33,577 bases of DNA from Chthonomonadales bacterium. GTDB taxonomy: Bacteria; Armatimonadota; Chthonomonadetes; Chthonomonadales; CAJBBX01. The DNA is taken from the NCBI GenBank assembly GCA_027459625.1, contig DAIDHP010000044.1:1-33577 (forward strand). The letters run 5' to 3'. The notes beneath the pieces were generated by a model. The model saw nothing but the letters and a program-made list of their open reading frames with translations. It searched no databases and was not told the DNA's origin. How positions within the stretch are numbered: the first letter of the stretch is position 1; every line of letters starts with the position of its first letter. This document shows, in pieces, positions 4,243-33,223 of this stretch. The position numbers were made by a program, and so were the translations under genes.

Positions 4243-4278
4243 TTTATCCACCTTTCGTCTTGCGCACCAAAATCGCCG

Positions 4279-5494: not shown

Positions 5495-5565
5495 ACAAAA
5501 GGCACCACTAAGAACTCAATCGAATTTCAATGGGATATCCCTTCCCGGGAAATGGATGGACACCA

Positions 5566-6369
5566 ATGAAGCGTTATTATGTGATCTCCATCGTTGCTAT
5601 TGTCGTAGTTTTCATTACCGCGATCTCCGTGCTCTCTTATTTAACCTTGCAATTAAAAAAAAGTGTCACCGTGACCCTTGAGGTGAATACCAACGCTCCC
5701 TCCGTGAAGGGAGTGAAATGGAAAGAGTCGGACATCGAAAACACCGCGCAAATCATTCACAATCGCCTGATCAAAATGGGAGTGTTCAAAGCGGTGGTAT
5801 CCGCCAATCCGCCAAATCGGGTGATTGTTAAAATGCCGGACCTTCCGAACAAACAGCGGATATTGGATGCCTTGATAACCCAAGCGAATTTGACTTTTCG
5901 ATATGTGCCCCAACTCGACCCAGATGGAATATGGACCACCGAGGATATCACCGATAAGAACGGAGATGAAACCGGTTATGAACAAATAGTGGGTAGGAAT
6001 GGCATGCCGGTTCCCAAATGGAAATTGCAGGCGCTCGTTTTCAACATGCCTCCCATATTGGATGGCTCTCAATTGCTGCCCTATTCATCCGTTGATCTAT
6101 CAACCGGAGAACCAACGATTTATTTCGAATTCAATGACAACGGAAAGAGAATTATGAAGATGTTCACACAGAGCCATATCGGTAAAACCCTCGCAATCTT
6201 CATGGATGACAAGCTGGTATGCGCACCTGTTATTACATCTGCGATCCCTGGCGCCGGCATCATACATGGCAGCTTCACGGTTGGGGAAGCGAAAACTCTC
6301 GCCGATCTCCTCAATGCCGGAACCCTCCCGTTTCCGATGAGAATTCAAAACATATCCGTTAAGCCGTGA
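5566..6369 (+). CDS. Membrane-anchored SecD P1-domain-like protein (lacks the SecD membrane domain)
   Basis: A 267-aa protein with one N-terminal membrane helix (MKRYYVISIVAIVVVFITAI) and an extracytoplasmic part matching the periplasmic P1 region of SecD. It shows the base-domain pattern ENTAQIIHNRLIKMGV, then IVKMPDLPNKQRILDAL, and the head/base segment SHIGKTLAIFMDDKLVCAPVI ending GSFTVGEAKTLADLLNAGTLPFPM. In full-length SecD this last motif directly precedes TM2-TM6; here the protein stops about nine residues later. The gene has its own promoter and no sign of frame disruption, so it looks like a stand-alone P1 protein, not a broken secD. An upstream in-frame ATG at 5530 is possible, but the membrane anchor and spacing favour 5566. 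Its role is unknown; it may assist export or interact with SecYEG/SecDF. Confidence 0.82.
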   Translation: MKRYYVISIVAIVVVFITAISVLSYLTLQLKKSVTVTLEVNTNAPSVKGVKWKESDIENTAQIIHNRLIKMGVFKAVVSANPPNRVIVKMPDLPNKQRILDALITQANLTFRYVPQLDPDGIWTTEDITDKNGDETGYEQIVGRNGMPVPKWKLQALVFNMPPILDGSQLLPYSSVDLSTGEPTIYFEFNDNGKRIMKMFTQSHIGKTLAIFMDDKLVCAPVITSAIPGAGIIHGSFTVGEAKTLADLLNAGTLPFPMRIQNISVKP

Positions 6370-13325: not shown

Positions 13326-13556
13326 GAAAGTTTAAAAGCCTCGTTTACGCGAACCGGGAGCGTCTGGCGATTTCAAGTGTTTAGCAAATATCCGGATCAG
13401 TACGCCTGAGGATTCAATTATAGTGTGGGGATTATTGGCAAGGATAAGCCGCCAAGTTTCTTCACCTCAAGACACGGCGTTCTTAACGATCCCAACCCAT
13501 TTTTACTATGGCGTAATATGACCCACTCATCATTGAAAGGCGGATCCTTCCGTTGA
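13326..13556 (+). pseudogene. Degenerate 3' fragment of a second FG-GAP gene
   Basis: In frame this reads TGSVWRFQVFSKYPDQYA, a TGA stop at a position where the intact copy has Gly, then GFNYSVGIIGKDKPP, SFFTSRHGVLNDPNP and FLLWRN. It aligns with the last ~60 residues of the protein at 9419-10690 (GFNSRVGIIGKDKLP, ILTSRHGFFNDPNP, LILWRN). By hand, 27 of 36 residues after the stop are identical. No start or upstream blades remain. Its terminal TGA overlaps the TTG start of the GH78-like gene, so the remnant directly abuts that gene. Confidence 0.85.
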
Positions 13557-16030: not shown

Positions 16031-16167
16031 TTTCAACCACACACTTCACAAACACCATATAAATAACTCATAATCAAGCAGGATTTCATATGGCCGCGAA
16101 GAAATCTGTCAAAAGCCGGTGTGATAATCGGCTAAAACTCTCCCTTTGGGGGGAAGGAGCGAAGCGA

Positions 16168-19100
16168 ATGCGTCAATATTCCATTGTTATTGTTCTCATG
16201 CTGTTCGGAGCCTTCCAGGCTCTTGCAGCCACAAACCCCATTCTCATGCCAACTCCGCAAAAGGTGTCATGGGGAAGCGGGAGGTTTGTCGTGCGTCATA
16301 ACGAACCTGTGCAAACCACGACACCAGAGGCGATATCCGATTTTTCATCTTATTTCGACAAAGTGACCTCAGGCTCTCATCCAATCCGTTCGAGTGCGAG
16401 GATTCACTTCGACCTGTTATCATCCCGCAACACTCAAATCGGAGATCAAGGGTATCTGCTTACCGTTACCCCGTCCGAGATAACGGTGAAAGCCAACACG
16501 CCGCAAGGGCTGTTTTACGGCTCACAGACCCTGCGGGAACTACTCGTCAAAAATGGCGGCGTCGCCTATTTCCCGTCCGTCAGCATCACCGATTGGCCCG
16601 CCATGGGGTACCGTGGCGTAATGGTGGACATCAGCCGAGGGCTAGTGCCGAACACCGCCACCTTCGAGCGACTCATTCGAGGCTTGGCTCGCATGAAGAT
16701 CAATGCGGTGCAACCCTATATCGAGGACACTTTCGCCTTCAAGAAATATCCATTTATCGGTCGCGACAGAGGCGCCTGGACCCCTCAGGAGGTCGCAAAG
16801 ATGGTGAAGGTGGCGAAAGCCTATTATGTCGATATGTCTCCATGCTTTGAATCTCTCGGGCATATGTATCAGATTCTCAAGCACCCTGAGATGGCGGACC
16901 TTCGAGAGACCATGGATGTCATCAGCCCCGCGAAACCAGGAACCTACACGTTCCTCAATAACTGCTACACGGAACTGGCCAAAGCCTTCCCGTTCCCCTA
17001 TCTCAACGTGGGATGCGACGAGACCTTCGATCTTGGCAAGGGACCCAGCAAGGCCCTGGTTGCGAAGGAAGGACTCGGAAAAGTTTATGCGGACCATATG
17101 ATGAAACTGGATCAGCTTTGCCAGGAGCATCACAAAACGATGCAATTCTGGGGCGATATGATGCTTCGATACCCGGGAATTGTAGGCGACATGCCGAAAG
17201 ACGCTATTGTGATGAACTGGGATTACGGCGATCAGACTCAGTTCCCTACCATCGCCACCTACAAATCCTACGGTTACAAGCAGATAGTCTGCCCTGGCAT
17301 TGAAAGTTGGGGGGACATGTTCCCCGACGTCAATTTCGCCAAGGGAAACATTCGAGGCTTCATTCAAGCGGGAAAGGCTGCGAATGTCATAGGCGTGCTG
17401 AACACCTGCTGGAGGGATAACGGAGAGGTCTTTTACGATTACGACTGGTTTCCAGACGCGATCGGAGCGGAATTCTCATGGGCGTCCAAGCCAGTTGTTG
17501 GCAAGACGTTCGATGAAGGGTTCGACCGCTGCTTCTACGGCATCGGCGGGGATGACCTCGCTCAAGCGTTCCGAATTCTCGGAGACAGTCTGAGCGCATT
17601 CCCCGGAGCGCCCGCCAATCAAACTCTCCAGTATTATTACGCAAACCCCTTCTCCGATCTGTCGATCGCCTTCACGAAAAATGGCAAGGCGGGAATGGCG
17701 AAGCTGGTATCTATGGCGCACCAGATCCGCAACCTCACCGACCATGCCCGTCCTACGGATGGGGAGGAAACGTTTCTCTATTTGCAATACGGCGCCGACC
17801 GAATCGCCTTCATTGCGCAAAAATACGACATGGCGAAACAGATCGCGGAGACCTATAACTCCGCATATTCGAACAGTTCCAACAAAGACGAAGCCACCCG
17901 CCATATCAAGCGGGCGATTCAACTGCTCGATAAACTCAATCAAGAAACGGTGCTCATGCGAGACCGCTACTCCGCACTATGGAATCTGGAGAATCACCCG
18001 CAGGGATTAAGCAATGTTCAAGGAAAATACGATGGCAGCCTGACAGCGTATGTGAATCTTACCCAACAGCTTCGAAACGCCCTTACGGATATCGCCACTG
18101 GCAAACCGCTGCCCTCACCTGCAACCCTGGGGCTGGTGCTGCCTCAGAGCACCTCCAGCGGTTATCGCCGGCCCTCATCCATGGCGAAGAACCCGAGTTG
18201 GTCGTTGCACTCGATATACGCTATTCGGGTCGCCCTGTCCGAGCCGTTGCAAACTCCGATACCGGCGCAGATACTCGTGAAATCGAATGAGCTGCCCGAA
18301 AATCTGCCCCTTGTCACCCAGATTCGCCTTATGGATCAGAGCGACACAACGGTGAGCGAACTTCCCTGCCAGGTGAATCATCTCAACAACAAAGAGACGC
18401 TGCTCACATTCATCATCCCTTCTGGTTTGGGGGGGAACCTGGATTTCGCTTTGGACAACACCCCCGCACGCGTGGAGAACCCTATCACCCTATCCAACGC
18501 AACGCAGATCAAAGGCGGAATGTGGATAGATAACTCAAAATATCGCGCCCTTCTGGGGAAGGAGGGCGCACATATCTATCGCTTCGACGTGGCGGCGTTG
18601 AAGGGGAGGGACGTTACGATGCCTGGGGATACTCAATGGCACGGATTCGACGATGTGGGAAGCGAGCGTGAGACAACCTTCACTCTTCAGCCGATCCTTA
18701 AAGGGCCCCTCTGCGTCCAGATAGATTGCAAGGCGTCGGATGGATTCGACAAATTGCTTTCCTTCTTCGATGGAACCGGTTGGTACGAAACACGTTTCGG
18801 TGAACCGGTCTCCTTCTTCTGGAACTATGACGACCCCGCCGTTATGGGTTCAAGCTCCCCCACCCCCGGTCAATACCGTTATGCGGACGGTAAAACCGGT
18901 CCCTTGCCGCAGGAGGGCGATATGAGTATCGCGGATCAGGCTCCGTGGGTGGCGAAATATCGTTCCGACGGCTTCACTCTCGGGCTTGTCTCCCCTCAAG
19001 GAGACGCCACTCTGCGCGCTGGCCCCGGCGATGGCATGGGTGGCGTGGGTGTGGAGGGCGGCGGCTCGACCTCCAACCTGCTAACCTATGCGAATGTCAC

Positions 19101-19188
19101 GCCGAAAACATGGAATACCGTCGCCTCGCTCTATCAAAGCTGGAAGGCGTGGGAAAAGGCGAGCATATCCGCGAGAGCGATTCGATAG
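16168..19188 (+). CDS. Secreted GH20-type beta-N-acetylhexosaminidase, long form
   Basis: A 1006-aa exported glycosidase. The signal peptide is MRQYSIVIVLMLFGAFQALAA. Residues ~30-140 form the GH20b-like domain (PTPQKVSWGSGRFVV, TPQGLFYGSQTLRELL). The TIM barrel follows (YRGVMVDISRGLVP, MKINAVQPYIEDTF), with the catalytic Asp-Glu pair at residues 284-285 in YLNVGCDETFDLG. The last ~500 residues are an unassigned helical part and then probable beta-sandwiches, longer than in most GH20 enzymes. I chose ATG at 16168: AAGGAG lies 8 nt upstream and the signal peptide begins there; the frame is open to an ATG at 16090. Likely substrates are terminal GlcNAc/GalNAc residues. The symporter downstream may import the released sugar. 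Confidence 0.85.
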   Translation: MRQYSIVIVLMLFGAFQALAATNPILMPTPQKVSWGSGRFVVRHNEPVQTTTPEAISDFSSYFDKVTSGSHPIRSSARIHFDLLSSRNTQIGDQGYLLTVTPSEITVKANTPQGLFYGSQTLRELLVKNGGVAYFPSVSITDWPAMGYRGVMVDISRGLVPNTATFERLIRGLARMKINAVQPYIEDTFAFKKYPFIGRDRGAWTPQEVAKMVKVAKAYYVDMSPCFESLGHMYQILKHPEMADLRETMDVISPAKPGTYTFLNNCYTELAKAFPFPYLNVGCDETFDLGKGPSKALVAKEGLGKVYADHMMKLDQLCQEHHKTMQFWGDMMLRYPGIVGDMPKDAIVMNWDYGDQTQFPTIATYKSYGYKQIVCPGIESWGDMFPDVNFAKGNIRGFIQAGKAANVIGVLNTCWRDNGEVFYDYDWFPDAIGAEFSWASKPVVGKTFDEGFDRCFYGIGGDDLAQAFRILGDSLSAFPGAPANQTLQYYYANPFSDLSIAFTKNGKAGMAKLVSMAHQIRNLTDHARPTDGEETFLYLQYGADRIAFIAQKYDMAKQIAETYNSAYSNSSNKDEATRHIKRAIQLLDKLNQETVLMRDRYSALWNLENHPQGLSNVQGKYDGSLTAYVNLTQQLRNALTDIATGKPLPSPATLGLVLPQSTSSGYRRPSSMAKNPSWSLHSIYAIRVALSEPLQTPIPAQILVKSNELPENLPLVTQIRLMDQSDTTVSELPCQVNHLNNKETLLTFIIPSGLGGNLDFALDNTPARVENPITLSNATQIKGGMWIDNSKYRALLGKEGAHIYRFDVAALKGRDVTMPGDTQWHGFDDVGSERETTFTLQPILKGPLCVQIDCKASDGFDKLLSFFDGTGWYETRFGEPVSFFWNYDDPAVMGSSSPTPGQYRYADGKTGPLPQEGDMSIADQAPWVAKYRSDGFTLGLVSPQGDATLRAGPGDGMGGVGVEGGGSTSNLLTYANVTPKTWNTVASLYQSWKAWEKASISARAIR

Positions 19189-19315: not shown

Positions 19316-19330
19316 ATGGCGCTTCAATGA
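19316..19330 (+). promoter_or_regulatory. Four-codon leader frame overlapping the symporter start
   Basis: GGAGGAGGT runs directly into ATG GCG CTT CAA TGA; the last A and the TG of TGA form the symporter ATG (19327). The strong Shine-Dalgarno is too close for the mini-frame's ATG and about 12 nt from the symporter ATG. It may simply be the symporter ribosome binding site, with the mini-frame an accident, or a translational-coupling device. Confidence 0.35.
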
Positions 19331-21108
19331 AATTAACCATAACGGATTGGGTTGTTATCGCGCTCTATTTCGTTTTTAACCTTGCAATCGGTCTTTATTA
19401 CCGCAAAAGAGCCACCAAGAATATGAGCGAGTTCTTCATTTCCGGTAGGAATGCCGCGTGGTGGCTCGCCGGGACCTCCATGGTGGCGACCACTTTCGCA
19501 GCGGACACCCCTTTGGCGGTGACAGGCTTCGTGGCGAAAAACGGCATCGCGGGCAACTGGATATGGTGGAGCATGGCGTTCAGCGGAATGCTCACCGTCT
19601 TCTTCTACGCCCGATTATGGCGGCGCGCCGGGGTGATGACGGACGTGGAGTTCGCCGAGATACGATATAGTGGTCCGGCGGCACGCTTTCTGCGAGGCTT
19701 TCGAGCGATCTATCTCGGATTGCCCATCAACTTGATCGTCCTTGGCTGGGTGAATCTTGCGATCGTCAAAATCATGCAGTTAACCCTTGGAATTAACAAA
19801 ATGGAGGCGTTGGTCGTTTGCATCCTGATGATGTTCCTAACCGCATCCATCTCGACTCTCTCCGGACTATGGGGGGTGCTAGTGACAGATCTTTTCCAGT
19901 TCGTCCTGAAAATGAGCATGGTGACGGTTCTCGCCGTTCTGGCGGTGAAAGCCACGGGGGGAATGGGACCCCTCCTGCAAGGTCTGCATGAAGTGAACAA
20001 GTCAAGAGGTGCGAACGGTTCCATCCTCGCGTTCTTCCCGGACATGCATTCCGTCTGGATGCCGATGATCACCTTCTTTGTCTATATCGCGGTGAACTGG
20101 TGGGCGACATGGTATCCCGGAGCCGAACCCGGCGGAGGCGGTTACATCGCTCAGAGAATCTTCTCCTCCAAGGACGAGAAAAACTCCCTTTTGGCGACCC
20201 TTTGGTTCAATATCGCCCAATACGCCGTGCGTCCATGGCCCTGGATCGTTGTCGCATTGGTCGCAGTCGTGAAGCTTCAGCACAACCCAATGTTTTTGAA
20301 GGATCCGGAAACCGGCTATATTATCATCATGGTTCGCTACCTGCCCGCAGCGTTACGGGGTTTGATGCTTGCAGCTTTCGCCGCCGCGTATATGTCCACC
20401 ATTGGGACGCAATTAAACTGGGGCGCCAGCTATCTTGTGAACGATGTGTATCGACGATTCATGGTGAAGGATGGAGAGGAACGGCACTATGTCGTTATCT
20501 CTCAAATGGTCACAATAATCCTGATGATCCTTTCCGCCGTGGTCACGTTTTACATGAGTTCCATTGGCAACGCTTGGAAATTCCTCATCGCGGTGGGGGC
20601 TGGGACGGGGCTTGTGTATATCCTGCGCTGGTTCTGGTGGAGGATAAACGCTTGGAGCGAGGTCTCGGCGATGATCGCGGCGTTCATAACCTCTCTCACA
20701 CTGCAATACGTATTTCATTTGAGCGATGCACAGCCTGTTCAGTTCGCCCACCTTGTGCTCTGGACCGTAAGCATCACCACTCTCGTATGGTTAATCGTGA
20801 CCATGATGACGCAACCGGAGGATATGGAGGTGCTCCTAAGTTTTTATCGCAAGGTGCGCCCCAATGCGTCCATGTGGGGACCGGTTGCAAAGGCGGCTCC
20901 GGAGGTTCAAACGGACAAGGACGGGCTCTTCAACTTGCTCGATTGGCTTAGCAGCGTTGCGATGGTCTACTGCTTCTTGTTTGGAACCGGATATCTAATC
21001 TTGGAACAGTACGCTCTCGGTTTGGGATTATTCGTAGGCGGATTTCTCTTCGGAGCGATCATCTATCGTGATCTCAATAATCGAGGCTGGGAGACTTTGG
21101 GAAAATAG
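19327..21108 (+). CDS. Sodium:solute symporter (SSS family)
   Basis: A 593-aa polytopic inner-membrane transporter. It opens TDWVVIALYFVFNLAIGLYYRKR and has the SSS family segment MSEFFISGRNAAWWLAGTSMVATTFAADTP, then about 13 hydrophobic helices including LAAFAAAYMSTIGTQLNWGASYLVNDVYRRF. The closest familiar types are SGLT-like sugar symporters, but the substrate cannot be told from sequence. It starts 138 nt after the hexosaminidase gene, in the same direction, so uptake of a released sugar is a reasonable inference. The ATG overlaps the stop of a four-codon frame (19316-19330) that carries the best-placed ribosome binding site, GGAGGAGG. Confidence 0.93.
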   Translation: MKLTITDWVVIALYFVFNLAIGLYYRKRATKNMSEFFISGRNAAWWLAGTSMVATTFAADTPLAVTGFVAKNGIAGNWIWWSMAFSGMLTVFFYARLWRRAGVMTDVEFAEIRYSGPAARFLRGFRAIYLGLPINLIVLGWVNLAIVKIMQLTLGINKMEALVVCILMMFLTASISTLSGLWGVLVTDLFQFVLKMSMVTVLAVLAVKATGGMGPLLQGLHEVNKSRGANGSILAFFPDMHSVWMPMITFFVYIAVNWWATWYPGAEPGGGGYIAQRIFSSKDEKNSLLATLWFNIAQYAVRPWPWIVVALVAVVKLQHNPMFLKDPETGYIIIMVRYLPAALRGLMLAAFAAAYMSTIGTQLNWGASYLVNDVYRRFMVKDGEERHYVVISQMVTIILMILSAVVTFYMSSIGNAWKFLIAVGAGTGLVYILRWFWWRINAWSEVSAMIAAFITSLTLQYVFHLSDAQPVQFAHLVLWTVSITTLVWLIVTMMTQPEDMEVLLSFYRKVRPNASMWGPVAKAAPEVQTDKDGLFNLLDWLSSVAMVYCFLFGTGYLILEQYALGLGLFVGGFLFGAIIYRDLNNRGWETLGK

Positions 21109-22295: not shown

Positions 22296-22392
22296 TCCCC
22301 AATACTTTAATCACGGAGGGATGAGACATAGCCCCGTAATAGCGCAACGCTGGCAGGCTATGGACTCATCCCTTTATTCAAAGAGTGACATC

Positions 22393-22962
22393 ATGAAGCA
22401 TCGTATTTACACCCGCACTGGCGACACAGGACGTACGCACCTTGCCGGAGGCGCAAGCGTGGGCAAGGAGAATCCCCGTATCGAGGCTTACGGCGACGTG
22501 GATGAACTCAATAGCGCCGTGGGATTAGCCAAGTGCGATTGCGACGACACTGAATTGAGTGCGCTCATGGATAACATCCAGAACCTTCTCTTTCAGGTGG
22601 GAGCCGATTTGGCGGCTCCGCCCGATGTCACTTCCCATTTAATCACCCGAATCTCCTCCTCGGACATCACCCCTCTGGAGATGGCGATCGATCGCCTTGA
22701 GGAGGAGTTGCCAACGCTGAAAAACTTCATTCTTCCCGGAGGATCCGCTCTCTCCTCAAGACTGCATCTCGCAAGAGCAATATGCCGCCGCGCGGAGAGG
22801 CGTTGCGTTTTATTGCACCAAAAGGAAACAATGAACCCCGAGGTGATCCGATTGCTGAACCGGCTATCCGACCTGCTCTTCGTGATGGCTCGGGTCGCCA
22901 ACCACAGGGCAGAAATTCCGGATCGGATATGGTTAAGCCAAAACCGCAATCCCGATACATAG
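22393..22962 (+). CDS. ATP:cob(I)alamin adenosyltransferase, PduO type
   Basis: A 189-aa enzyme that makes adenosylcobalamin from cob(I)alamin and ATP. It opens KHRIYTRTGDTGRTHLAGG, the N-terminal ATP-binding motif of PduO-type enzymes, and continues with EAYGDVDELNSAVGLAK, FILPGGSALSSRLHLARAICRRAERR and LLNRLSDLLFVMARVAN, which hold the conserved ATP and cobalamin contacts. ATG at 22393 has AAAGAGTG upstream; the frame is open to 22321 but similarity starts here. It is evolutionarily unrelated to the CobO at 3703-4242, so the cell carries two routes for the same step. No riboswitch is seen upstream. Confidence 0.95.
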   Translation: MKHRIYTRTGDTGRTHLAGGASVGKENPRIEAYGDVDELNSAVGLAKCDCDDTELSALMDNIQNLLFQVGADLAAPPDVTSHLITRISSSDITPLEMAIDRLEEELPTLKNFILPGGSALSSRLHLARAICRRAERRCVLLHQKETMNPEVIRLLNRLSDLLFVMARVANHRAEIPDRIWLSQNRNPDT

Positions 22963-23029: not shown

Positions 23030-26000
23030 ATGTCCCTCACTCGTCGCGCCTTTATTCAATCATCCGCCGTATCGGTTGCTGGGTTTGCTTTTGGAACGCA
23101 AGCCTCAAACGCGCACCGAACCAAAACCTCGAAATCACGCTACCGCGTGATTCGCCTTCGCGGACTTGGAGCCCTCATCGTCAATTCTCGCATTAATACT
23201 CGCGCACACTCTAGTTGGATCACACTTACAGCGGAAACCCCCGAACTCGCTAGGATGTGCGGCTCCAAGTTTCTGTCGGATTTGCTAGGATTTGGGGACG
23301 CAATCTTGCTCTCCGGTGGAGATTTACCCGCAACGACGGTTTCCTTGGAGAACAGGGTTTGGTGGGTCATTGGAGAAAAGGGGAGAGACTGCCACATCCT
23401 CTGTGCGCACTCCAAAAAAGAGATGACCGCTTTGGCGAGGAAAACGAAAGCATCGCTCTGGTCGTCGATTCCTCAATATATCCATCCTCCCTGGCTGGAT
23501 TGCATGGATAACGCCGCGCTCGGCTTTTGGTTCCTGGGAGGAGGTGCCCTGCCAACGGATGTCAATGCCGATTTCGCACAATTCCACCGTTTCGATTTAA
23601 CCGCATGCATGGCTTCGGGTGTGGATGAAACGCGGCTTATAGCCCCCGGATTACTCGACACCACCATAATGGATTGGTGGCGTGTGATTGCAAGGGAAAA
23701 TCATACGCCTTATCGCATGCTCTTGAACTGGACTCAGCCCATGCAACCCCCCATGCTATGGAACCGAACGCCCCTGCCGTATGTGGAACCGGAGAAAGGG
23801 GCAGTGCCCTTCGACGATTTTCAGCACGCCTCCCTTCAAGTGTTCGACGCCTTTGTGCCAGTGCCGAAGGGAGACCCCCATACCTTGGATTTGCGCCGTC
23901 GTGTGGCGTCGCGCGTCTCGCAAGACCCCTATTTCATGGGACATCACGGATCGGCGGAATTGGGTGGTCAGACGTTGGTGGAGCTATCCAGATATTCCGG
24001 AATGCCCTCCTGCACGGAAGCCTGGCGTGATTATCTGCGGCGAGACCTTGGCTTGAACTTGCAGCAAGTCGGCTTGAGACACCTTGGGGATTGGGAAGGC
24101 TACAAGGATTGGAGCGAGGTTCCCGTGCCGAGCGTAAGGGATTTCATCGGTTGGGGCGACGATAGTCTGGACCTGTCCGGCACCTGGGGGGGACGCCTCG
24201 ATCCGATGGGCGTTGGCGATAAGGAGAGGTGGTATGCTGACGAATCGCCGACGGGCTGGTCCTCAATACGGAATAACGATGTCATGCTGCTGAAGTGCGC
24301 CGAAGACAATTCGCCGCGATTCTGGCTTCGCACGAGTGTCACCCTTTCTGCGCCTCAACTCAACGACTTAAAGTTTCTGCACATCTCTCGCGCAGGATGG
24401 CACGCCCTCGCGCCCCCTACGGCGATGGAGGTCTATCTCAACGGACAACTGTTGAAGGATGTCACCGTGGATCATCCCATATGGCCAGATCAGGATCAAT
24501 GCCTCGAAATAGGCAACGCCGCCCGAATTGGTGAAAACCGTCTGTCGATGAAGGTGTGCGGACCGCTCTCCTATATCTTTCTCAGTTCCAAGGGAAGATG
24601 GTCCTATCCTTCCGAGTACCGACATAAGAATCAGTTATGGTACGACGCGATAGATTTCACTTGCGTCTACAAACTCAAAACGGTGGAGAACAACCTCAAA
24701 GCCATCCGCGCGGGCGACGCCACTCGCCCCATCAAGGTCATGGCGCCGTGGAACGTGATGGACCGACTTCCGAAGCTGTGCAAAAAATACGGGGCGTACC
24801 CCCACGACACCGGTCAGGGCGCTGCGTGCTGGGGGCCGTGGATGCCGCGCTATGTCTCCTGGATGGGAATCCCAACCAGCAGCGAGCCGGGCGGTCCCGC
24901 CGGATCGCCTCAAGAGTTACGTCAATTTTTGACGTTCTTCCTCATGCTTGGAAACAGCATGGTGGATGTCGTCTTCGATTTCAGCGAGTACGCAGGGAAA
25001 CCGGATATGGCGCAATGGATGAATGATAATCGTGAGATGATGCGCTGCATCGGGAAAATGGCGATGCGTCAGCCTCAAATCGCCGTTTTGCGCTCTCTTC
25101 GATCCGTGAGGCTGAATTTCCAAGCGCCTTGGAGCTGGGATGTCGCTCGCGGAGAGGTGCAAGCGACGGGCAGAACCGCTGATTACGTGGACTTGCCGGA
25201 TTTTCACTCGGGCGAGGCACGTCGCTTCAAGGTGATTTTCGACGACGGCACGGCGGTGTTGACACAGGAGGATATTGCGGGCATTGAAAGGTTCGTCAGC
25301 GATGGCGGGGTCTTCGTCGCCATGCATCTCACTGGCATGCACACTCCCGATGCCGCCTACTCCTGGCCAATTTCAAAGTTGACGGGATTAAAGGTGATGG
25401 ATCGCAAGCCCCCCTTCGGAGATATCGCGTTCTCAAAGGAGCAATCTCTGTTACCCTCTCTGCGCGGGCGATCCGTCAAGGGGGACGGCTTGGCTCTGGA
25501 CTGGATGAAGGAGAACGAAACAGGCGCATCACTCGCACAATGCGTTCGAGCCGACGGTGTTCAAGTTGTCGCGACATGGAGCGGTCGGACCAAAGAGGAG
25601 GGAAATATCGCCGTCGCCACACGAAAAATCGGCAAGGGGATGGTTGTGACGCTCGGCTCCTCCTTCTGGAGAGGGGCGCAGGACCGTGACGGACACTGGA
25701 TGAGCCGCGCAAGCCTTTCCAGCCTGTTGGATGAACTCTTCCAATCCCTTGGGGTTCCAAGGCAAAGCTGGGTGACCGGTGCGGAGGACGTGAACGAGGA
25801 GATTTGGGCGGAGCATTGGGTGAGCAAAAACGGGGTCTACAATCTCTATCCCGTCGCGAGGATCAACACCGACGCCAAGCAACCGCCCCTGTCCGCATTC
25901 ATTCGAATTCGCTCGAATAACCCCATGAGGGATCTGCGCGATCTCTCCGTTCCGGGGCATCCGGTTGTGCGTGTCGCCTCCGATTCCTCCTCCTTCTCTC

Positions 26001-26986
26001 TGCCGCCAATCGCGCTGGAGCCAATGGAGTGCCATGTCTACGCATCCATTCGACCGGATGCGGAGTACGCCACGCTGAGATGGCTCGAGGTTCAAAAGGA
26101 GCAATGGGGGGAGTTGCCCCCGGTTTCGGTGCGCGAGCTTCCACCCGTTCCCGATTCCGCAACGGACACGATCTCGCTCGCGGATGACTGGCGCATAGCT
26201 CCTGAACAGCCGGAGGAGGGCTGGCCGCTCCAGAATTTCATCGATCGCAAATGGCGAGTCGTTAAACCGGAAACCTTTGCATCCCTTGGCGTGCCGGAGA
26301 ATTCAGTGGCGCGTTTCAGGCGCACCGTTCGGATTCCGCGTCAATGGAAAAAACAGATCGTCACCCTCTTTTTCGATGCTCCATACTGGTTTTGGGGGTT
26401 CAAGCAGAGCGATAGGATGTGGATTAACGGCAATGAGATTTCAGCCGACCTTATTCCGACAAATAATAACGGCGCATTCTCCATCGATGTGACGCCGTAT
26501 GCGCGGAAAGGCGCGATGACCATCGCCTTGGAGATGGACGGTCATCTTCCCGCAGGACAAAAACCTTGGCGCCCCAGACCCGCAGGCGTCACGGGGACGT
26601 TCTACATCCAAGCCACCCCAACTCCGGTGCGCACAACGCCCCTCTACGATTGGTTGATAGCGACGGACGTGGGAGTAATGCAACCGGCGGCGGCAGGTTC
26701 GCCGGGGAAATATCTCTATTTTGAAACGCGATTCCACGTGCCGAAGGAGTGGGTCGCGAAACGATTGTTCCTGAAGTCGGACCGATCCCTGAACTGGGTG
26801 ATACTGAATAATCATGTCATCGCCGTGCCTGCGCTCTATCATACTCTTGATATCACTCGACTGGCGCTGCGCGATGGTGAGAATATCCTCCGCTGGATAC
26901 CGGATGTGAACGCCATCGAAAATCCGACGGGTGTGCGTGAGTTCTCCGGAACGATCCCACCACTCACATTGGTATGGACGACATAA
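23030..26986 (+). CDS. Very large Tat-exported protein, glycoside-hydrolase-like
   Basis: A 1318-aa protein. The N-terminus LTRRAFIQSSAVSVAGFAFG is a twin-arginine (Tat) signal. Residues ~320-670 resemble the barrel of clan-A beta-galactosidase-like hydrolases (SCTEAWRDYLRRDLGLN, later SEPGGPAGSPQELRQFLTFF), interrupted by a beta-sandwich insertion (~420-517: MEVYLNGQLL, ENRLSMKV). Near residue 740 VLTQEDIAGIERFVSDGG is like the Rossmann-type trimerisation domain of GH42 enzymes. Residues ~1040-1200 look like a GH2 sugar-binding sandwich (ARFRRTVRIPRQWKKQ, FDAPYW, MWINGNEI). I cannot place it in a named family or identify catalytic residues. AAGGAG lies 6 nt before the ATG. It heads an apparent operon of exported proteins. 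Confidence 0.75.
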   Translation: MSLTRRAFIQSSAVSVAGFAFGTQASNAHRTKTSKSRYRVIRLRGLGALIVNSRINTRAHSSWITLTAETPELARMCGSKFLSDLLGFGDAILLSGGDLPATTVSLENRVWWVIGEKGRDCHILCAHSKKEMTALARKTKASLWSSIPQYIHPPWLDCMDNAALGFWFLGGGALPTDVNADFAQFHRFDLTACMASGVDETRLIAPGLLDTTIMDWWRVIARENHTPYRMLLNWTQPMQPPMLWNRTPLPYVEPEKGAVPFDDFQHASLQVFDAFVPVPKGDPHTLDLRRRVASRVSQDPYFMGHHGSAELGGQTLVELSRYSGMPSCTEAWRDYLRRDLGLNLQQVGLRHLGDWEGYKDWSEVPVPSVRDFIGWGDDSLDLSGTWGGRLDPMGVGDKERWYADESPTGWSSIRNNDVMLLKCAEDNSPRFWLRTSVTLSAPQLNDLKFLHISRAGWHALAPPTAMEVYLNGQLLKDVTVDHPIWPDQDQCLEIGNAARIGENRLSMKVCGPLSYIFLSSKGRWSYPSEYRHKNQLWYDAIDFTCVYKLKTVENNLKAIRAGDATRPIKVMAPWNVMDRLPKLCKKYGAYPHDTGQGAACWGPWMPRYVSWMGIPTSSEPGGPAGSPQELRQFLTFFLMLGNSMVDVVFDFSEYAGKPDMAQWMNDNREMMRCIGKMAMRQPQIAVLRSLRSVRLNFQAPWSWDVARGEVQATGRTADYVDLPDFHSGEARRFKVIFDDGTAVLTQEDIAGIERFVSDGGVFVAMHLTGMHTPDAAYSWPISKLTGLKVMDRKPPFGDIAFSKEQSLLPSLRGRSVKGDGLALDWMKENETGASLAQCVRADGVQVVATWSGRTKEEGNIAVATRKIGKGMVVTLGSSFWRGAQDRDGHWMSRASLSSLLDELFQSLGVPRQSWVTGAEDVNEEIWAEHWVSKNGVYNLYPVARINTDAKQPPLSAFIRIRSNNPMRDLRDLSVPGHPVVRVASDSSSFSLPPIALEPMECHVYASIRPDAEYATLRWLEVQKEQWGELPPVSVRELPPVPDSATDTISLADDWRIAPEQPEEGWPLQNFIDRKWRVVKPETFASLGVPENSVARFRRTVRIPRQWKKQIVTLFFDAPYWFWGFKQSDRMWINGNEISADLIPTNNNGAFSIDVTPYARKGAMTIALEMDGHLPAGQKPWRPRPAGVTGTFYIQATPTPVRTTPLYDWLIATDVGVMQPAAAGSPGKYLYFETRFHVPKEWVAKRLFLKSDRSLNWVILNNHVIAVPALYHTLDITRLALRDGENILRWIPDVNAIENPTGVREFSGTIPPLTLVWTT

Positions 26987-27048
26987 ATTCGCATGGCTTC
27001 CGATGTAAGAATGACCTGGATGAATTACAGAATTTCCGAGAGCGATAT

Positions 27049-30000
27049 ATGAAAATCAACAGACTGGATTTCATACGAATTGCCTTCGGCATGACAATCA
27101 TGCCGCTGAATGCCACAAAGACGGCAAAGAACCCCTTACTGGCATCAATGCCGCATATCAAGGATTACACGCATATGTGGTGGGTGAAGGGATTCCCCTC
27201 GCTCATTCCGAATTCGCCGTGGGTGCGCTGCATTCAGACCGGCTATTATGCTGTGGCGCTTGATACCGAGACTCTGCAAATCCCCCATTTTGGCACGTTA
27301 CATACGGATATGGATTACATCTCCTGTGCGCGAAGTGATAATTCCGCCTGGCTGAAATTGCCCCCTGCACAACTTGAGTTGAGCATCACAGCCAACGGGA
27401 AAACATACCGATGCCGCAGTGGGGGCAAATGGACCAGCTTTACCGGACCACGATTGATCGAGTCCGGGCGGTTTCTTCAGCGCGCAGATGTGACCGATCT
27501 GGTCTTCATCTCAAATGATGGCTCTCGACTAAATGCGGAAGCACGATTCGAAACCGCCGCGTGGCCCAATCGCCTGGGATTGATACTCGCGGCACGTCCT
27601 GGTTTGATACCTATCCCGGCGGGAGAGGCTTGTTTTGGAAGGGTTGGAGGTGGATATGGATTAAACGGCGCAAATCATCTTGATATTCCTGATTGTCCTG
27701 AACTGGACACGGATCGGTTTACGCTGGAATTCTGGGTTTATCTACCTACGGATTACCAAGTTACCAAGACATTTCCCTGGGTGGCGTGCAAGAATGGCAA
27801 CGAGGAGGCGGATGGCAACTATGGCATTGTTATTTTAAATGACATTCCCCAAGCTCGCATGAACATCGGCGGGGGCCGAGATAACGAGTTCACGATCAAT
27901 CCAAGCCCGGGGCATCCGATGAATTTCGAGGCGTGGAACCAAATGGCGCTGAGTTATGACGGATATATCATGCGATTTTATCTCAATGGGGATATTGCGG
28001 GTGAGTTGAAAATCGACAGGAAACGCAACCCGAAACATGGCGACTTGGCATTCGGACGGCGACAGGACAACTCGGGGGATGGGTATTACTTTCGAGGCGG
28101 GATTGATGAAATCCGTATCTATGATCACGCTCTGACACCCGCCGAGGTGCACGCGCTGTACGAACATCCCGAGGCGCCAGGTTTGGAGATGAAGCCCGTC
28201 CTTGAGAGACATTTCCGAGCGGACGGAAAGGCGTTCATGACCAGACCTTATGAACAATGGGAGAACGCCTCCTTGGAGATTGGTTTGACCGCTCATAACA
28301 AATTCCTTTATAAGCGTATGAATTTGCGGGACGATCATGGGGGCGATATCCAATGGCATGAGGCGTATCTGACGTTTCATCCGATCGATTCCCATGAAGA
28401 GAGTTCGCCAAATCCCATAAGGGTTACAGCATTCGAAATCCCGACGGGGAAGGCTCGACCAGTCGAATTCGATGAGGCTCGCGGCTGGCACAATATAAAT
28501 CTGGATGGCGTTGTTCCCATAACTCCGCAGGGGGATTATGAAAAACAGAATGACGCCATGGAGAGAGTAAGGCTGTTACTTACCAATGGAACGGGGGTGG
28601 AGAGGATTGCACGGCTGCGTTTTGAAAAGAGCGCGAATGGCATCGCTCAAAACATAGGTTCCCCCATCACGGGAATGTCCGCCATGCTGAGGGATGTGAA
28701 CGGCCAACCCACAGGCATTCCCGTTCAGCTTAGTAAGAATTGGCATAACAGGCCTGAAGGGGGAGTTTACGTCGGACCGTGGTTCCATGGCGTTTCACAG
28801 ATTCGACTTCCCGCCAAATCCCATGTCGAATTGGAACTGACAATCGTTTATGGTCACTGGGGTGGCGTGGCGGCGGCATCGCACACCCAGTTATGCCTAA
28901 TTGGCTGGGGTAGCAATCAGCTTTGGGATGAGAGCGCACTTGGTTCTTGGGGGGAGAGTATTTGTTATGAACCCGACCAGGTGCAGGGTGAATGCGGAAT
29001 ACTGGATGTGCGACCTGTAATGGTTCTATCCATGAATGACAATCTCAAGTGGAATTGGACGAACAATGTGGGGGGCGGTGACTTTGTACGCCTATTCAAT
29101 GCGTCAGGAAAGCGCATATACCCGGAAAGAATGCATAGTGCATATCAACGATATGGACCATGTCTGACGGAAGTGACTTACGCTGGCAAAACCGGAGACG
29201 CCATGGAACATGAAGTAACGGTGAGCCTTACCCGTTCCGATGATATTGTGCGAGGATATTACCGTCTCCGACTTAATGTAAGAAAAACGATGAAATTCTC
29301 CCGTTTCGTTATTTTTCAGATAGGCGCAGACACATACAGTTACACAGGTGAACGCAAGATGGCGTATGGAAACGAAAATGGATTAATGCTGGAATGGAAC
29401 ACGCATTGGGGAGGCGATGTCTACCGCACAAAGCCGATGGAGTGCATGGGTCGCACGCCGTGGATGTCGCTACATCAGGCTGTCGCCCGATCAGCAACGG
29501 GCGCCTGGGCGAATCGGGGGATCGTCATACGAACTTGGAACGCACGTATCGGAGGCGAGAAAACCCCGCCTTGGATTGCGGAACACGGGGTGAATACACA
29601 AGGCGCGGATACTTCCACGATGGATATCATACCTCCGCCTGGCGTGTCCCGTCTCGAACCCGGTGATTACGTGGAAGCCACCTTTGAACATATCATCATG
29701 CCGCAGTATGCAAAGGATTATTATGGACCGAATCAAGCACTTCACAGCGCACTGACGCGTTGGGAGAACACCTGGCAAATGGTTCATCGGGAGGCTATGG
29801 GAAATGATCGGCGTGTCAGCATACGAACAGGTTCCTTGGAATTGCTTTATCCTGATATTAGAATCCGCTCCAAGGGAAACAGGGCTGAGTTCATGCTTAC
29901 GGGTGGGCTCGGTTATGTGCCAATCACCTTCATGGGACTAACCGCCATGGATGGTTATATCCTTCATTATGACGGAACAACGCTGAATCAGAGCGTGCAT

Positions 30001-30117
30001 GGTAATGATTTCTGGCAAACCGACTACGATCCGACAACCCACACTTGGAGTCGAACCTATAATATCAAAACGGATGATGATACGCAGCACCGGATAGTTT
30101 TCAGCCAGGTGACATAA
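27049..30117 (+). CDS. Exported LamG-domain protein, family not recognised
   Basis: A 1022-aa protein. The N-terminus (MKINRLDFIRIAFGMTIMP) resembles a Tat leader in which the twin arginine is degenerate; export is inferred. Residues ~195-377 are a LamG/concanavalin-A-like domain: GYGLNGANHLDIPD, FTLEFWVYLP, WNQMALSYDG, RFYLNGDIAG and FRGGIDEIRIYDHALTPAEV. The C-terminal two thirds is beta-rich and unassigned, with motifs such as WFHGVSQIRLPAKSHVELEL and RFVIFQIGADTYSYTGERKM. The frame is open to an ATG at 26974 overlapping the previous stop; I prefer 27049, which starts the leader-like segment. It lies 62 nt after the Tat protein gene, so the two are probably co-transcribed. A polysaccharide-binding or -degrading role is likely but unproven. 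Confidence 0.75.
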   Translation: MKINRLDFIRIAFGMTIMPLNATKTAKNPLLASMPHIKDYTHMWWVKGFPSLIPNSPWVRCIQTGYYAVALDTETLQIPHFGTLHTDMDYISCARSDNSAWLKLPPAQLELSITANGKTYRCRSGGKWTSFTGPRLIESGRFLQRADVTDLVFISNDGSRLNAEARFETAAWPNRLGLILAARPGLIPIPAGEACFGRVGGGYGLNGANHLDIPDCPELDTDRFTLEFWVYLPTDYQVTKTFPWVACKNGNEEADGNYGIVILNDIPQARMNIGGGRDNEFTINPSPGHPMNFEAWNQMALSYDGYIMRFYLNGDIAGELKIDRKRNPKHGDLAFGRRQDNSGDGYYFRGGIDEIRIYDHALTPAEVHALYEHPEAPGLEMKPVLERHFRADGKAFMTRPYEQWENASLEIGLTAHNKFLYKRMNLRDDHGGDIQWHEAYLTFHPIDSHEESSPNPIRVTAFEIPTGKARPVEFDEARGWHNINLDGVVPITPQGDYEKQNDAMERVRLLLTNGTGVERIARLRFEKSANGIAQNIGSPITGMSAMLRDVNGQPTGIPVQLSKNWHNRPEGGVYVGPWFHGVSQIRLPAKSHVELELTIVYGHWGGVAAASHTQLCLIGWGSNQLWDESALGSWGESICYEPDQVQGECGILDVRPVMVLSMNDNLKWNWTNNVGGGDFVRLFNASGKRIYPERMHSAYQRYGPCLTEVTYAGKTGDAMEHEVTVSLTRSDDIVRGYYRLRLNVRKTMKFSRFVIFQIGADTYSYTGERKMAYGNENGLMLEWNTHWGGDVYRTKPMECMGRTPWMSLHQAVARSATGAWANRGIVIRTWNARIGGEKTPPWIAEHGVNTQGADTSTMDIIPPPGVSRLEPGDYVEATFEHIIMPQYAKDYYGPNQALHSALTRWENTWQMVHREAMGNDRRVSIRTGSLELLYPDIRIRSKGNRAEFMLTGGLGYVPITFMGLTAMDGYILHYDGTTLNQSVHGNDFWQTDYDPTTHTWSRTYNIKTDDDTQHRIVFSQVT

Positions 30118-30200
30118 TTCATAGGACATCTTGGTTATGTCTGTTGATTGATACATGCTGACTTGAATGGTTGGATTCATCCGACTTAAAAGGAATTGAC

Positions 30201-32288
30201 ATGCATAATATTCTCATAACGATATCCGCGGCATTCATTGTCGCGCCATGCTTCGCATCTATGGCTGTCACACCAAATCAGTCCGACGATCATGCGGAAG
30301 CCAAATCGCGGCTTATGCATATCAAGGATAAGACTCTCGTCGTCTGGGTCACACTCGCAAACCTCACGCAGCGCGGCGGAAGTGCGCTCACCATCGAGGA
30401 CACGAAAGCTCATTTTGACGGGATCATCTTCGGTGAACTGTCTCCGGGGAAATGGATGGCTGGGAGCGATTTATATAACCGAACGGAGAAAGATCAAACC
30501 GGCTATCCGGAGGAAACCGCCGATTCAAATTCATTGATTCAAATCGCCATCGTCTATCGCAGCGCACAGGTGACGATATACCGCTCGGGAGTCGAATACA
30601 CTCGATATCATATTGAAAAACCCCAAGAGTTCGGTAAGGATAGCCTCGTGGTTTTCGGGATCCGTCATCTGGAGGCGAATGACGGTGTATGTTTCAACGG
30701 CTCCATTGCGGACGCCCGCATCTACGATGTCGCCCTCACGCAGGATCAAATCCATGCCCTCCGTCCCGGGCGGGTTTCCGATCCCAAACCCTTGGCTTGG
30801 TGGAATTTCAAGGAGGGACTTCAGGATCGAATGGGAACCTACCCCTATGGCAAGCTAAGCGGAGGCGCACATGTCGCGGGAGGCGAATTAACGCTTGTAG
30901 GCGATGATAGCTGCTTCATCGCCCGTTCATACCACACTCCTCCCCAATATGATTCTCCCATCCACTTTCGCCCTGCATTCGGAGTCCTGGCGGATACCAT
31001 CCCCTACTACATTCATGGCGAGTACCACGTCTTCTACCTGCACGCGGTGGCGGGAACCCCATGGGAGCATATCGTTTCCAAGGACCTTGTCCATTGGAGG
31101 GAGTTGCCGACCGCTCTGAAACCCAATAAAAACGATCCCGACGGTCCTGATGGCGGGAATATGTTTACGGGCAGCGTCATTGAATATAACGGCGTCTATC
31201 ATATCTTCTACACCGGGCACAACCCCCGAAACCCGAACGGTATGGAGATGATCTGCCACGCCACAAGCCCCGACGGAGTGAAGTGGACGAAACATCCGGA
31301 GGATGTATTCGGAGCGGACGGTATCCATTACATGCCCCAAAGCGATTTCCGCGACCCTTATGTTTTCTGGAACGCGCGAGAGAAATGCTTCTGGATGCTG
31401 CTCTGCACCCGAAACGCCGCTGACGGCAAGCCCGTGGTGGGGGTGGCTCGATCAAATGATCTGACCATGTGGGAACAGATTATGCCTCTCACTCTCGACC
31501 CGTCACTCACCACCGGAACGCCGGAATGCCCCGACGTGTTCAAAAGCGGAGGGACATGGTATCTCCTCTATTCTCCGTGCGCGGGTACGACGGATATTAG
31601 ATACGCCAAGGACTTGAACGGGCCTTGGCGTCAATCCTCCACCATGTCGATCGACACCTCCATCCTTTACGCGGCGAAGCGGATGTTTGACGGCAAACGC
31701 CATATTTTGGTGGGATGGATTCGCGACCTGGGCGGCGACAGGGATAACGGCTCGGAGATGTGGGGAGGAACGATGTGCCTTCACCGCGTGGCGTATGAAG
31801 GTGCGAACGGGGCCCTATACTTCAAGCCAACCCCGGAAGTTGTGAATCTCTTCACGAAAACCTTCCGCTCCGCTAATCCGACTATACTCCCCGGGAAAGA
31901 CTTCACCATGGATGCGCCGGAAAATTACATGCTGGATTGTCGCATTCGTTTGAAGCCGCACGCGGAGTTCACCATCTCGTTCCGAGAAAGTAGTGACGGG
32001 AAAAAGGCGTATCGACTGACTCTCGCGCCCGAAAGGAACGAGGCGGGGTTATCCGGAGAGGACTTCAACTCCTTCCGCGCCTGCATCGTGGACACATCCA
32101 AACCCGTAAAAATCCAGGCGTTTCTTCAGGGGACTATTTTAGAGTGTTTCATCAACGACAAGTACGCACTCAGCAGGCGCGTTTACAACCTGGCGCATGG
32201 GAATCTCGGGTTCTCGGTGACGGACAATGAGGTGACTGTGGAGGAGATACAAATCAGGCTCCCTGAAACCGTTCCTGCGGAACACTGA
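30201..32288 (+). CDS. Secreted LamG plus GH32-like (fructan hydrolase-like) protein
   Basis: A 695-aa protein with a signal peptide (MHNILITISAAFIVAPCFAS). Residues ~43-186 form a LamG-like sandwich ending IADARIYDVALTQDQIHAL. Residues ~250-545 form a five-bladed propeller of the GH32 type: HFRPAFGVLADTIPYYIHGE (Asp near 265 aligns with the nucleophile of WMNDPNG), HIVSKDLVHWRELP, the RDP motif (FRDPYVF, ~385) and the acid/base Glu-Cys in TPECPDVF (~442). The C-terminal sandwich (~573-690) has FLQGTILECFINDKYALSRRVY. All three catalytic acids appear present, but the nucleophile motif is very divergent, so specificity may differ from fructans. ATG at 30201 has AAAGGA 7 nt upstream. It is 83 nt after the LamG protein gene. 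Confidence 0.85.
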   Translation: MHNILITISAAFIVAPCFASMAVTPNQSDDHAEAKSRLMHIKDKTLVVWVTLANLTQRGGSALTIEDTKAHFDGIIFGELSPGKWMAGSDLYNRTEKDQTGYPEETADSNSLIQIAIVYRSAQVTIYRSGVEYTRYHIEKPQEFGKDSLVVFGIRHLEANDGVCFNGSIADARIYDVALTQDQIHALRPGRVSDPKPLAWWNFKEGLQDRMGTYPYGKLSGGAHVAGGELTLVGDDSCFIARSYHTPPQYDSPIHFRPAFGVLADTIPYYIHGEYHVFYLHAVAGTPWEHIVSKDLVHWRELPTALKPNKNDPDGPDGGNMFTGSVIEYNGVYHIFYTGHNPRNPNGMEMICHATSPDGVKWTKHPEDVFGADGIHYMPQSDFRDPYVFWNAREKCFWMLLCTRNAADGKPVVGVARSNDLTMWEQIMPLTLDPSLTTGTPECPDVFKSGGTWYLLYSPCAGTTDIRYAKDLNGPWRQSSTMSIDTSILYAAKRMFDGKRHILVGWIRDLGGDRDNGSEMWGGTMCLHRVAYEGANGALYFKPTPEVVNLFTKTFRSANPTILPGKDFTMDAPENYMLDCRIRLKPHAEFTISFRESSDGKKAYRLTLAPERNEAGLSGEDFNSFRACIVDTSKPVKIQAFLQGTILECFINDKYALSRRVYNLAHGNLGFSVTDNEVTVEEIQIRLPETVPAEH

Positions 32289-32398
32289 CTTAAATGCGAC
32301 GGGATGATTCCGATGAATCGGATATCGAATCGACTCCGCTTTACCACCATCTACAAAATGGTTTGAGGCTCTCATGCCTCACGAAGGATAATCCGAAA

Positions 32399-33223
32399 AT
32401 GAACTTGCTCTTTTACCTGAAACATTTGGGCGGATTGTTACTCGGCGTCCTTATGGGGGCGATCGGATTGGGGGCGACGTACCTTTTCATCAAATTCCTC
32501 GTCAAGAGCAGTCTCTGGTCCATACCGTGCTCGGTTTTGGCTCTTCTTTTACTGGTCGCCATGTCCAAGGTCTTTGAAAATCTCTACTCCCTCCACGCCA
32601 ACGTGATCCGAAACGATCTCGTCAGGATGGAATATCTTCTGGAAAAAGGCTCCGACGTGAATAAAACGGGGCAAAAAAAGCGAACCGCCCTGATGGTCGC
32701 GACGGCGAGAAACGACATCAAGGCGATGAAGCTCCTTTTGGAGTATTACCCCAAGCTTGAAGCGCGTGACGAAAGAGGCGACACCGCGCTCACTTTGGCG
32801 TCCCATCCTGATGCGTTGAGGCTACTGCTTGTCAATGGCGCGGATGTGAACGCCAAGGGACGCCTCGGACGCACTGCGCTGATATTCGCCTCGGAGGTGG
32901 GAAGCCTGGAGACCACGAAGGTCTTGGAGGAGCACGGCGCGGATATCAACGCGGCGGACAACTACGGATGGACCGCCCTCATGTGGGCGTCCGACGCCAC
33001 AATGGCGGAGTTCCTTGTCGCCAACGGGGCGGACATCGAAGTGCGGGATTGCGACGGCTGGACTCCCCTGATGGCGGCGGCTTATTGGGGGAGGGAGGAT
33101 GTCGCACGGATGCTGATAGCGCATGGGGCGGACGTTGCGGCGACGGATAAGTTCGGTGTCACTGCGAAGATGCGAGCCGAACGAACCGGTCACGAACTTG
33201 TGGCGAAACTATTACCCTCCTAA
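32399..33223 (+). CDS. Membrane-anchored ankyrin-repeat protein
   Basis: A 274-aa protein. Two N-terminal hydrophobic helices (HLGGLLLGVLMGAIGLGATYLFI and WSIPCSVLALLLLVAMSKVF) are followed by about six ankyrin repeats: VRMEYLLEKGSDVN, TALMVATARNDIKAMKLLLEY, DALRLLLVNGADVNAKG, GRTALIFASEVGSLE, GWTALMWASDA and GWTPLMAAAYWGREDVARMLI. The repeats mediate protein-protein binding; the partner is unknown. I prefer ATG at 32399 (GAAGGA upstream) over an in-frame start at 32294, because the hydrophobic anchor begins there. It follows the GH32-like gene after 110 nt, in the same direction. Confidence 0.85.
   Translation: MNLLFYLKHLGGLLLGVLMGAIGLGATYLFIKFLVKSSLWSIPCSVLALLLLVAMSKVFENLYSLHANVIRNDLVRMEYLLEKGSDVNKTGQKKRTALMVATARNDIKAMKLLLEYYPKLEARDERGDTALTLASHPDALRLLLVNGADVNAKGRLGRTALIFASEVGSLETTKVLEEHGADINAADNYGWTALMWASDATMAEFLVANGADIEVRDCDGWTPLMAAAYWGREDVARMLIAHGADVAATDKFGVTAKMRAERTGHELVAKLLPS

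Follow-up and report, generated by a model that had tools for sequence, protein, structure and literature searches.

Three long open reading frames (ORFs), here called P1, P2 and P3, follow one another in a 33,577-nucleotide stretch of DNA (the window), which is contig DAIDHP010000044.1 of a Chthonomonadales bacterium of the phylum Armatimonadota (assembly GCA_027459625.1; 4.55 Mb, 114 contigs, completeness 96.6%). They raise the question of whether they form a dedicated operon for the breakdown of a polysaccharide. A first-pass annotation had described three ORFs in tandem with gaps of 62 and 83 nt and had read them as an operon of exported, carbohydrate-active-like proteins, perhaps an undescribed polysaccharide-degrading locus. 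The ORF coordinates agree with our own, and the gaps between P1 and P2 (62 nt) and between P2 and P3 (83 nt) hold for starts at 27049 and 30201. We lean towards a different reading of the whole: the genes of three probably exported carbohydrate-active proteins would have come together ad hoc, in a neighbourhood recently reshuffled in this genus, and would not make up a dedicated, conserved operon. What stands of the earlier idea is that the locus contains an undescribed protein family, that of P2; as a conserved unit it does not.

The order of the three genes was not kept across the genomes searched. In a congeneric genome (G006), contig C94 aligns to the window in P1 (89% DNA identity), in a 356-nt piece from the beginning of P3 (84%) and in the ankyrin-repeat gene (84%), in this order; the ankyrin-repeat gene also follows P3 in the window. 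Between these same flanks, both P2 and the remainder of P3 are missing. The remnant of P3 (locus L033, approximately 4232-4587 of the reverse complement) has two stop codons in frame, so that P3 decayed there, and P2 was either gained in the source genome (G000) or lost in G006. We searched 291 genomes of the phylum, scoring two candidates per genome for P1 and for P2 and at most three for P3. Strong matches to both P1 and P2 were present in six genomes (G000, G006, G017, G037, G216 and G250), and they shared one contig in G000 only. A scan of genome contigs confirmed 281 relatives of P2, and P1 occurred in none of the best 80 of these 281 loci, on which all locus counts below are based. A GH32-like stretch, as in P3, was found in one of the 80 (L114; 24% identity, at a distance of 3.8 kb on the opposite strand), and in L103 the LamG-type match to P3 falls inside P2 itself. 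Neither P2 nor P3 was matched at 1e-3 in nine neighbourhoods of other P1-family genes (L039-L043, L194-L197). A conserved P1-P2-P3 operon or polysaccharide-utilisation locus was rejected because the order is not kept across these genomes. Two points count on the other side: 3 kb on both sides of P2 was available in 47 of the 80 loci, which limits the negative on gene order, and further copies of P1, P2 or P3 may be missed because few candidates were scored per genome.

P2 itself probably came from elsewhere. At third codon positions its GC content (0.541) is below that of seven neighbouring genes (0.619-0.687). P2 shares 63% identity with a verrucomicrobial protein; with four relatives from its own family, each in another genus, the figure is 43-47%, and with the congeneric copy it is 37%. 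In a tree of 80 rows that included eight further Armatimonadota rows, P2 fell inside a 66-row set with a Shimodaira-Hasegawa-like approximate likelihood ratio (SH-aLRT) support of 99, and the other rows of this set are titled planctomycete or verrucomicrobial, bar one untitled 'bacterium'. Base composition, identities and tree placement together make lateral acquisition of P2 likely, and the donor would probably have been a planctomycete or a verrucomicrobium. Several features of the tree argue against leaning on it too heavily: it was quick and midpoint-rooted, the P2 branch is long (0.56) and deviant in composition, P2 falls in none of the starred sets that span at most half of the tree rows, and four Armatimonadota genomes (G250, G017, G037 and G090) were left out despite open frames. 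Alternatively, P2 may be ancestral, and the congeneric genome may have lost it along with most of P3.

The first-pass annotation had held two of the proteins to be unassignable, and this stood for P2 outside its LamG domain, whereas P1 could be placed beside GH42 by its family profile. The Pfam set for the family comprised P1 and six relatives from its order (n = 7). Glyco_hydro_42 was matched by four of the seven members (best 2.9e-9), Glyco_hydro_42M by five and Glyco_hydro_2_N by six. Searched against PDB, the family profile returned beta-galactosidase structures, which we take to be GH42, at 1e-9, chiefly within one section of the barrel (227-381); the best single stretch reached 7.7e-6, and the trimerisation-domain stretch of the same chain was weak (i-E 2). 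GH2 sugar-binding domains matched the C-terminal part of P1 from 3e-9, and GH2 chains weakly matched residues approximately 390-550, the stretch that interrupts the barrel (8e-4 to 0.6). All 19 aligned family sequences have the candidate nucleophile E619. At the acid/base motif (HHGSAE in P1, with E310), Glu was seen by eye in all 17 rows that reach it, gaps shifting the column. The two catalytic Glu of GH42 thus appear to be present in the P1 family, with putative residue roles. Against this placement stand the results for P1 alone, which had no match to the Glyco_hydro_42 catalytic model of Pfam and matched GH2_N and GH42M below their gathering scores (GH42M 18.5 against 25.8 bits).

Judged by its family profile, P1 is thus apparently a divergent GH42-like protein of clan GH-A. 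It resembles GH42 beta-galactosidases in having a barrel with a Glu pair followed by a GH42M-type domain, and it differs from them in the beta-sandwich inside the barrel, an additional C-terminal GH2_N-type domain and a length of about 1300 aa. P1 would most likely act as a retaining beta-glycosidase of GH42/clan GH-A type, in which E310 serves as acid/base and E619 is the nucleophile, and be exported by the twin-arginine translocation (Tat) route. Its N-terminus, MSLTRRAFIQ, contains a twin-arginine motif (TRRAFIQ), a curated Tat model scored 14.0 bits, below the cut-off of 16.7, and the source genome encodes tatC (175.6 bits). That the Tat route points to folded or cofactor-containing cargo had been suggested before; the motif is there, and the inference from it is weak because some members of the family (G095, G216 and one of G017, by eye) begin without it. 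P1 is 89% identical to the protein of the congeneric G006 and 49% to one from a different family (G056), and the other 16 of 18 compared sequences are approximately 20-23% identical to it. Strong matches (1e-156 or better) were found in 13 of the 291 genomes of the phylum; the other seven of the 20 listed were short. A second P1-family protein with 27% identity is encoded elsewhere in the source genome (7717-11673 of locus L042, contig C5), adjoining genes of 299 and 1026 aa in an order that recurs in G006 (95% and 91% identity).

P3 was more readily classified. Its GH32 N-terminal domain scored 132 bits against a Pfam cut-off of 22.1 and its LamG domain 48.4 bits against 27.6 for Laminin_G_3, and the LamG domain of P2 reached 77.6 bits against the same cut-off, so that the LamG domain given earlier for P2 and the LamG and GH32 domains given for P3 are all above their Pfam thresholds. 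The C-terminal GH32 domain, at 19.6, fell just short of its cut-off of 21.9. Residues D265, D385 and E442 align with the triad of 1uyp, and D/D/E is kept in 12 of 12 aligned sequences (L183-L193 and P3); we take these to be the Asp nucleophile, the Asp of the RDP motif and the Glu of the EC motif. P3 shares with beta-fructofuranosidases and levanases of GH32 the catalytic domain and an intact D-D-E triad, and it departs from them in its first motif (ADTIP, not NDPNG) and in its N-terminal LamG domain. In 88 of the 291 genomes there were matches at 1e-20 or better, some of which cover one part alone, either LamG or GH32. By these domain matches P3 is an ordinary GH32 protein with a LamG domain added, most likely a beta-fructosidase-like hydrolase that LamG would tether to its substrate. 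The carbohydrate-active character proposed for the locus is therefore upheld for P1, through its family profile, and for P3, through its GH32 match, and is likely for P2.

P2 is the protein that the searched family libraries do not explain. Outside LamG it belongs to no Pfam or NCBIfam family, and P2 itself matches LamG-type models only. In 27 members of its family, Laminin_G_3 was matched by 20 (Pfam, E 0.1). The other Pfam matches, to a 3-keto-disaccharide hydrolase (7 of 27, best 1e-4), DUF1583_N (seven) and a sialidase N-domain (three), would be cross-matches of the LamG-type sandwich. Pfam also gave one weak single-member match (Plug 0.023). NCBIfam returned TafC, matched in P2 within the LamG part, as well as single-member matches (PRK06183 0.0011, fosfomycin 0.066). 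We took the single-member matches as chance. All chains returned by PDB profile searches with the family match the LamG region. Relatives without LamG exist (L162, L174, L177, L180 and L181, and two in other Armatimonadota, G006 and G007), so that LamG is an optional insert. In an alignment of 62 rows (61 of the 80 loci and the window, after exclusion of fragments, near-duplicates and broken frames), the core contains dozens of nearly invariant polar residues; they include Asp, Glu, Lys, His, Arg and Tyr, with the carboxylates E636, D653, D678, D732 and E845 among them.

The family is broadly distributed. By title, 72 of the 80 loci belong to Verrucomicrobiota or Planctomycetota, two to Lentisphaerota, four to Armatimonadota and two to others, where some genus names were placed in the first two phyla on our own assumption. 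The core was matched at 1e-44 or better in 16 of the 291 Armatimonadota genomes and at about 1e-11 in two more, and the remaining 30 of the 48 genomes listed match P2 in the LamG region alone. P2 had no match among plasmids. A P2-like family was not met in a literature search conducted at the level of listings, with most subscription papers outside its reach. P2 thus appears, from these comparisons, to belong to a widespread and well-conserved family that the searched copies of Pfam and NCBIfam do not describe. In three related genomes (loci L034, L035 and L036), a P2 homologue (45-47% identity) precedes a long protein with 79-84% conservation, beyond which lie proteins of some 930-990 aa that carry an FE(K/R)NTG motif.

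Structure prediction gave confident models. The AlphaFold2 model of P2, built from the 62-row alignment, had a predicted local distance difference test score (pLDDT) of 91.5 and a predicted TM-score (pTM) of 0.89, and that of the LamG-less member L162 (53 rows) had a pLDDT of 91.1. Both are nearly all beta, the longest helices of the core having 9-10 residues. Structure searches with whole P2 (Foldseek, VIA-align) were dominated by LamG-type folds; residues approximately 199-398 resemble LamG/pentraxin-like domains (Z up to 21.1, to PAPP-A), with the difference that this domain is an insertion in P2 and is missing from several family members. Among the 50 matches listed, one lay wholly outside LamG, namely PL26 (Z 16.4, 243 residues, model 608-960). 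In VIA-align comparisons with the L162 core, the highest scores were to the PL26 exo-rhamnogalacturonan lyase (Z 15.6-15.9, 240-247 residues, root-mean-square deviation 3.5), with a galactosaminidase (Z 15.2-15.4), GH186 OpgG/OpgD (Z 14.4-15.0, 244-291 residues) and GH174 fucanases (Z 12.8-12.9, 261-274 residues) also matched. GH186 (OpgG/OpgD) and GH174 (endo-1,3-fucanases) are described as glycanases (PMC10514313 and PMC11943901). The P2 core shares a similar beta-sandwich with both over 244-291 residues; P2 is longer, has 6-9% identity and gave no sequence-profile match. No OpgG-type model was matched by the 27 family members, and neither OpgG/OpgD nor GH174 chains were returned by PDB profile searches with the family.

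The gene neighbours of P2 in other genomes bear on its role. Mechanically called ORFs were grouped by single-linkage BLAST around the full set of 80 loci, which includes close relatives and loci truncated at a contig end, and four clusters were tested with uncorrected p values. Their labels are approximate, since the sulfatase, SASA and GH29 clusters each owe their name to a single scanned member, and the esterase cluster to two. A dienelactone-hydrolase/acetyl-xylan-esterase-like gene is present in 14 of the 80 loci. It lies within 200 nt of P2 on the same strand in 7 of 14 cases, against 48 of 528 other ORFs of at least 250 aa (Fisher p 1.5e-4). Sulfatase-cluster genes occur in 26 of the 80 loci; the phyla that hold the P2 family are rich in sulfatases. 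Linkage of sulfatases to P2 was not accepted as proven, adjacency not being significant (8/45 against 47/497, p 0.07), and SASA esterases (3/8, p 0.04) and GH29 (2/5, p 0.08) beside P2 were too few to count. In G006, the LamG-less homologue L038 is preceded by two ORFs that resemble the partner esterase by eye, in pieces that have no Pfam match, and it lies about 4.5 kb from a gene that resembles GH29 by eye.

Taken together, these data lead us to propose, tentatively and at somewhat less than even odds, that P2 founds an undescribed polysaccharide-cleaving family, with a beta-sandwich catalytic core, an optional LamG insert and a frequent partner esterase, distributed in Verrucomicrobiota, Planctomycetota, Lentisphaerota and Armatimonadota. 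Its substrates would be acetylated, possibly sulfated or deoxyhexose-containing glycans. In our preferred reading of the locus, too, the core, whose fold is like that of GH186 and GH174 and of the PL26 beta domain, is most likely a domain that cleaves polysaccharides, and LamG would be an added binding module. Several observations weigh against an enzymatic P2. A shared fold alone would not establish function, and the enzymatic role of P2 stays putative because the fold matches include non-catalytic domains: C-terminal parts of GH38, which tie with PL26 (Z 12.5-15.6), and the periplasmic domain of YidC (Z 12.8, about three Z units under PL26). The OpgD authors state that similarity to GH38 concerns its C-terminal and not its catalytic domain (PMC10514313), and the same caution applies to the P2 core. 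Furthermore, Foldseek TM-scores for the core are low (at most 0.23 of the query among the 50 matches listed), and Pfam scans of a subset of the window ORFs revealed no partner-type esterase, no sulfatase and no GH29. Export of P2 is likewise putative, the signal at its N-terminus being weak by eye.

Some of these observations bear on a second reading, in which P2 is no enzyme and instead a large exported binding or surface protein, a LamG lectin domain on a beta-sandwich scaffold. LamG is its sole recognisable domain, and the non-catalytic sandwiches among the top folds would fit a scaffold; yet members without LamG show this domain to be dispensable, and the many nearly invariant Asp, Glu, Lys, His, Arg and Tyr of the core and the recurrent esterase neighbour also count against it. 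We regard this reading as rather unlikely, though worth keeping in mind.

It is more doubtful still that P1, P2 and P3, though recently assembled, work as a functional operon that jointly degrades one polysaccharide. All three proteins are carbohydrate-active-like, they are encoded on the same strand with short gaps, so that co-transcription may occur, and P1 and the P3 remnant are also neighbours in the congeneric genome. No terminator-like site on the + strand was found in the two gaps by a consensus scan that performs at the shuffle mean, as do the promoter- and terminator-like counts in the window. However, a substrate common to GH42-like and GH32 enzymes is not obvious, and the order is not conserved, with no P2 or P3 near the closest extra-genus relative of P1 (49%) or eight other P1-family genes. 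Tight spacing is not special to the three genes: the flanking cobalamin adenosyltransferase and ankyrin genes are equally close, at 67 and 5 nt. The former was not found 5' of P1 in G006, where just 251 nt of contig precede P1.

Least probable, and in our view quite improbable, is that P2 is a PL26-like polysaccharide lyase and not a hydrolase, since the best structural scores and the invariant Lys, His, Arg and Tyr that would suit a lyase are offset by GH38 and GH186 matches within one Z unit, that is, tied, by the lack of any PcRGLX match in the 27 members at E 0.1 and of PcRGLX_2nd in the source genome, and by models without long helices for the C-terminal alpha/alpha toroid that PL26 has.

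Features of the window are listed below. Read as its longest ORF, P2 would share 13 nt with P1. P1, P2 and P3 are not chance ORFs, given their great length and their homologues of similar length elsewhere. A GH78-type alpha-L-rhamnosidase gene lies upstream in two overlapping frames, broken either by a frameshift or by an assembly error, and is followed on the same strand by a GH20-like gene and a sodium/solute symporter gene. The sole matches of a further ORF were P1-domain models of SecD.

Table 1 Coordinates of P1, P2, P3 and other features in the 33,577-nt window (residue numbers refer to each protein)
Feature	Position	Strand	Length	Remarks
P1	23030..26986	+	1318 aa	Tat-like signal; barrel carrying the candidate catalytic residues E310 (acid/base) and E619 (nucleophile); inserted GH2-like beta-sandwich
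P1, C-terminal half	within P1			putative GH42 trimerisation-type domain ~734-883; GH2_N-type sandwich ~1076-1167
P2	27049..30117	+	1022 aa	from ATG; conserved all-beta core, LamG inserted at ~199-398
P2, longest ORF	26974-30117	+	1047 aa	
P3	30201..32288	+	695 aa	from ATG; LamG 27-185, GH32 255-685; candidate triad D265, D385, E442
P3, longest ORF	30171-32288	+	705 aa	from TTG
PduO-type cobalamin adenosyltransferase	22321..22962	+		ends 67 nt upstream of P1
Ankyrin-repeat protein	32294..33223	+		starts 5 nt after P3
Alpha-L-rhamnosidase (GH78-type)	13553-15890			frames 13553-14458 and 14412-15890
GH20-like	16090-19188			
Sodium/solute symporter	19327-21108			
SecD P1-domain-matching ORF	5530-6369		279 aa	

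The three-gene locus as such matters little because its order is not conserved, and its interest lies in the proteins. P1 would add a divergent branch of about 1300 aa beside GH42 in Armatimonadota. P2 is a fair candidate for a new family of carbohydrate-active enzymes and the part of the locus worth biochemical work. Should P2 prove to be an enzyme, a function would be assigned to a family that occurs in tens of species or more and is missing from the searched copies of Pfam and NCBIfam, and the breakdown of algal and plant polysaccharides could be annotated better in these phyla.

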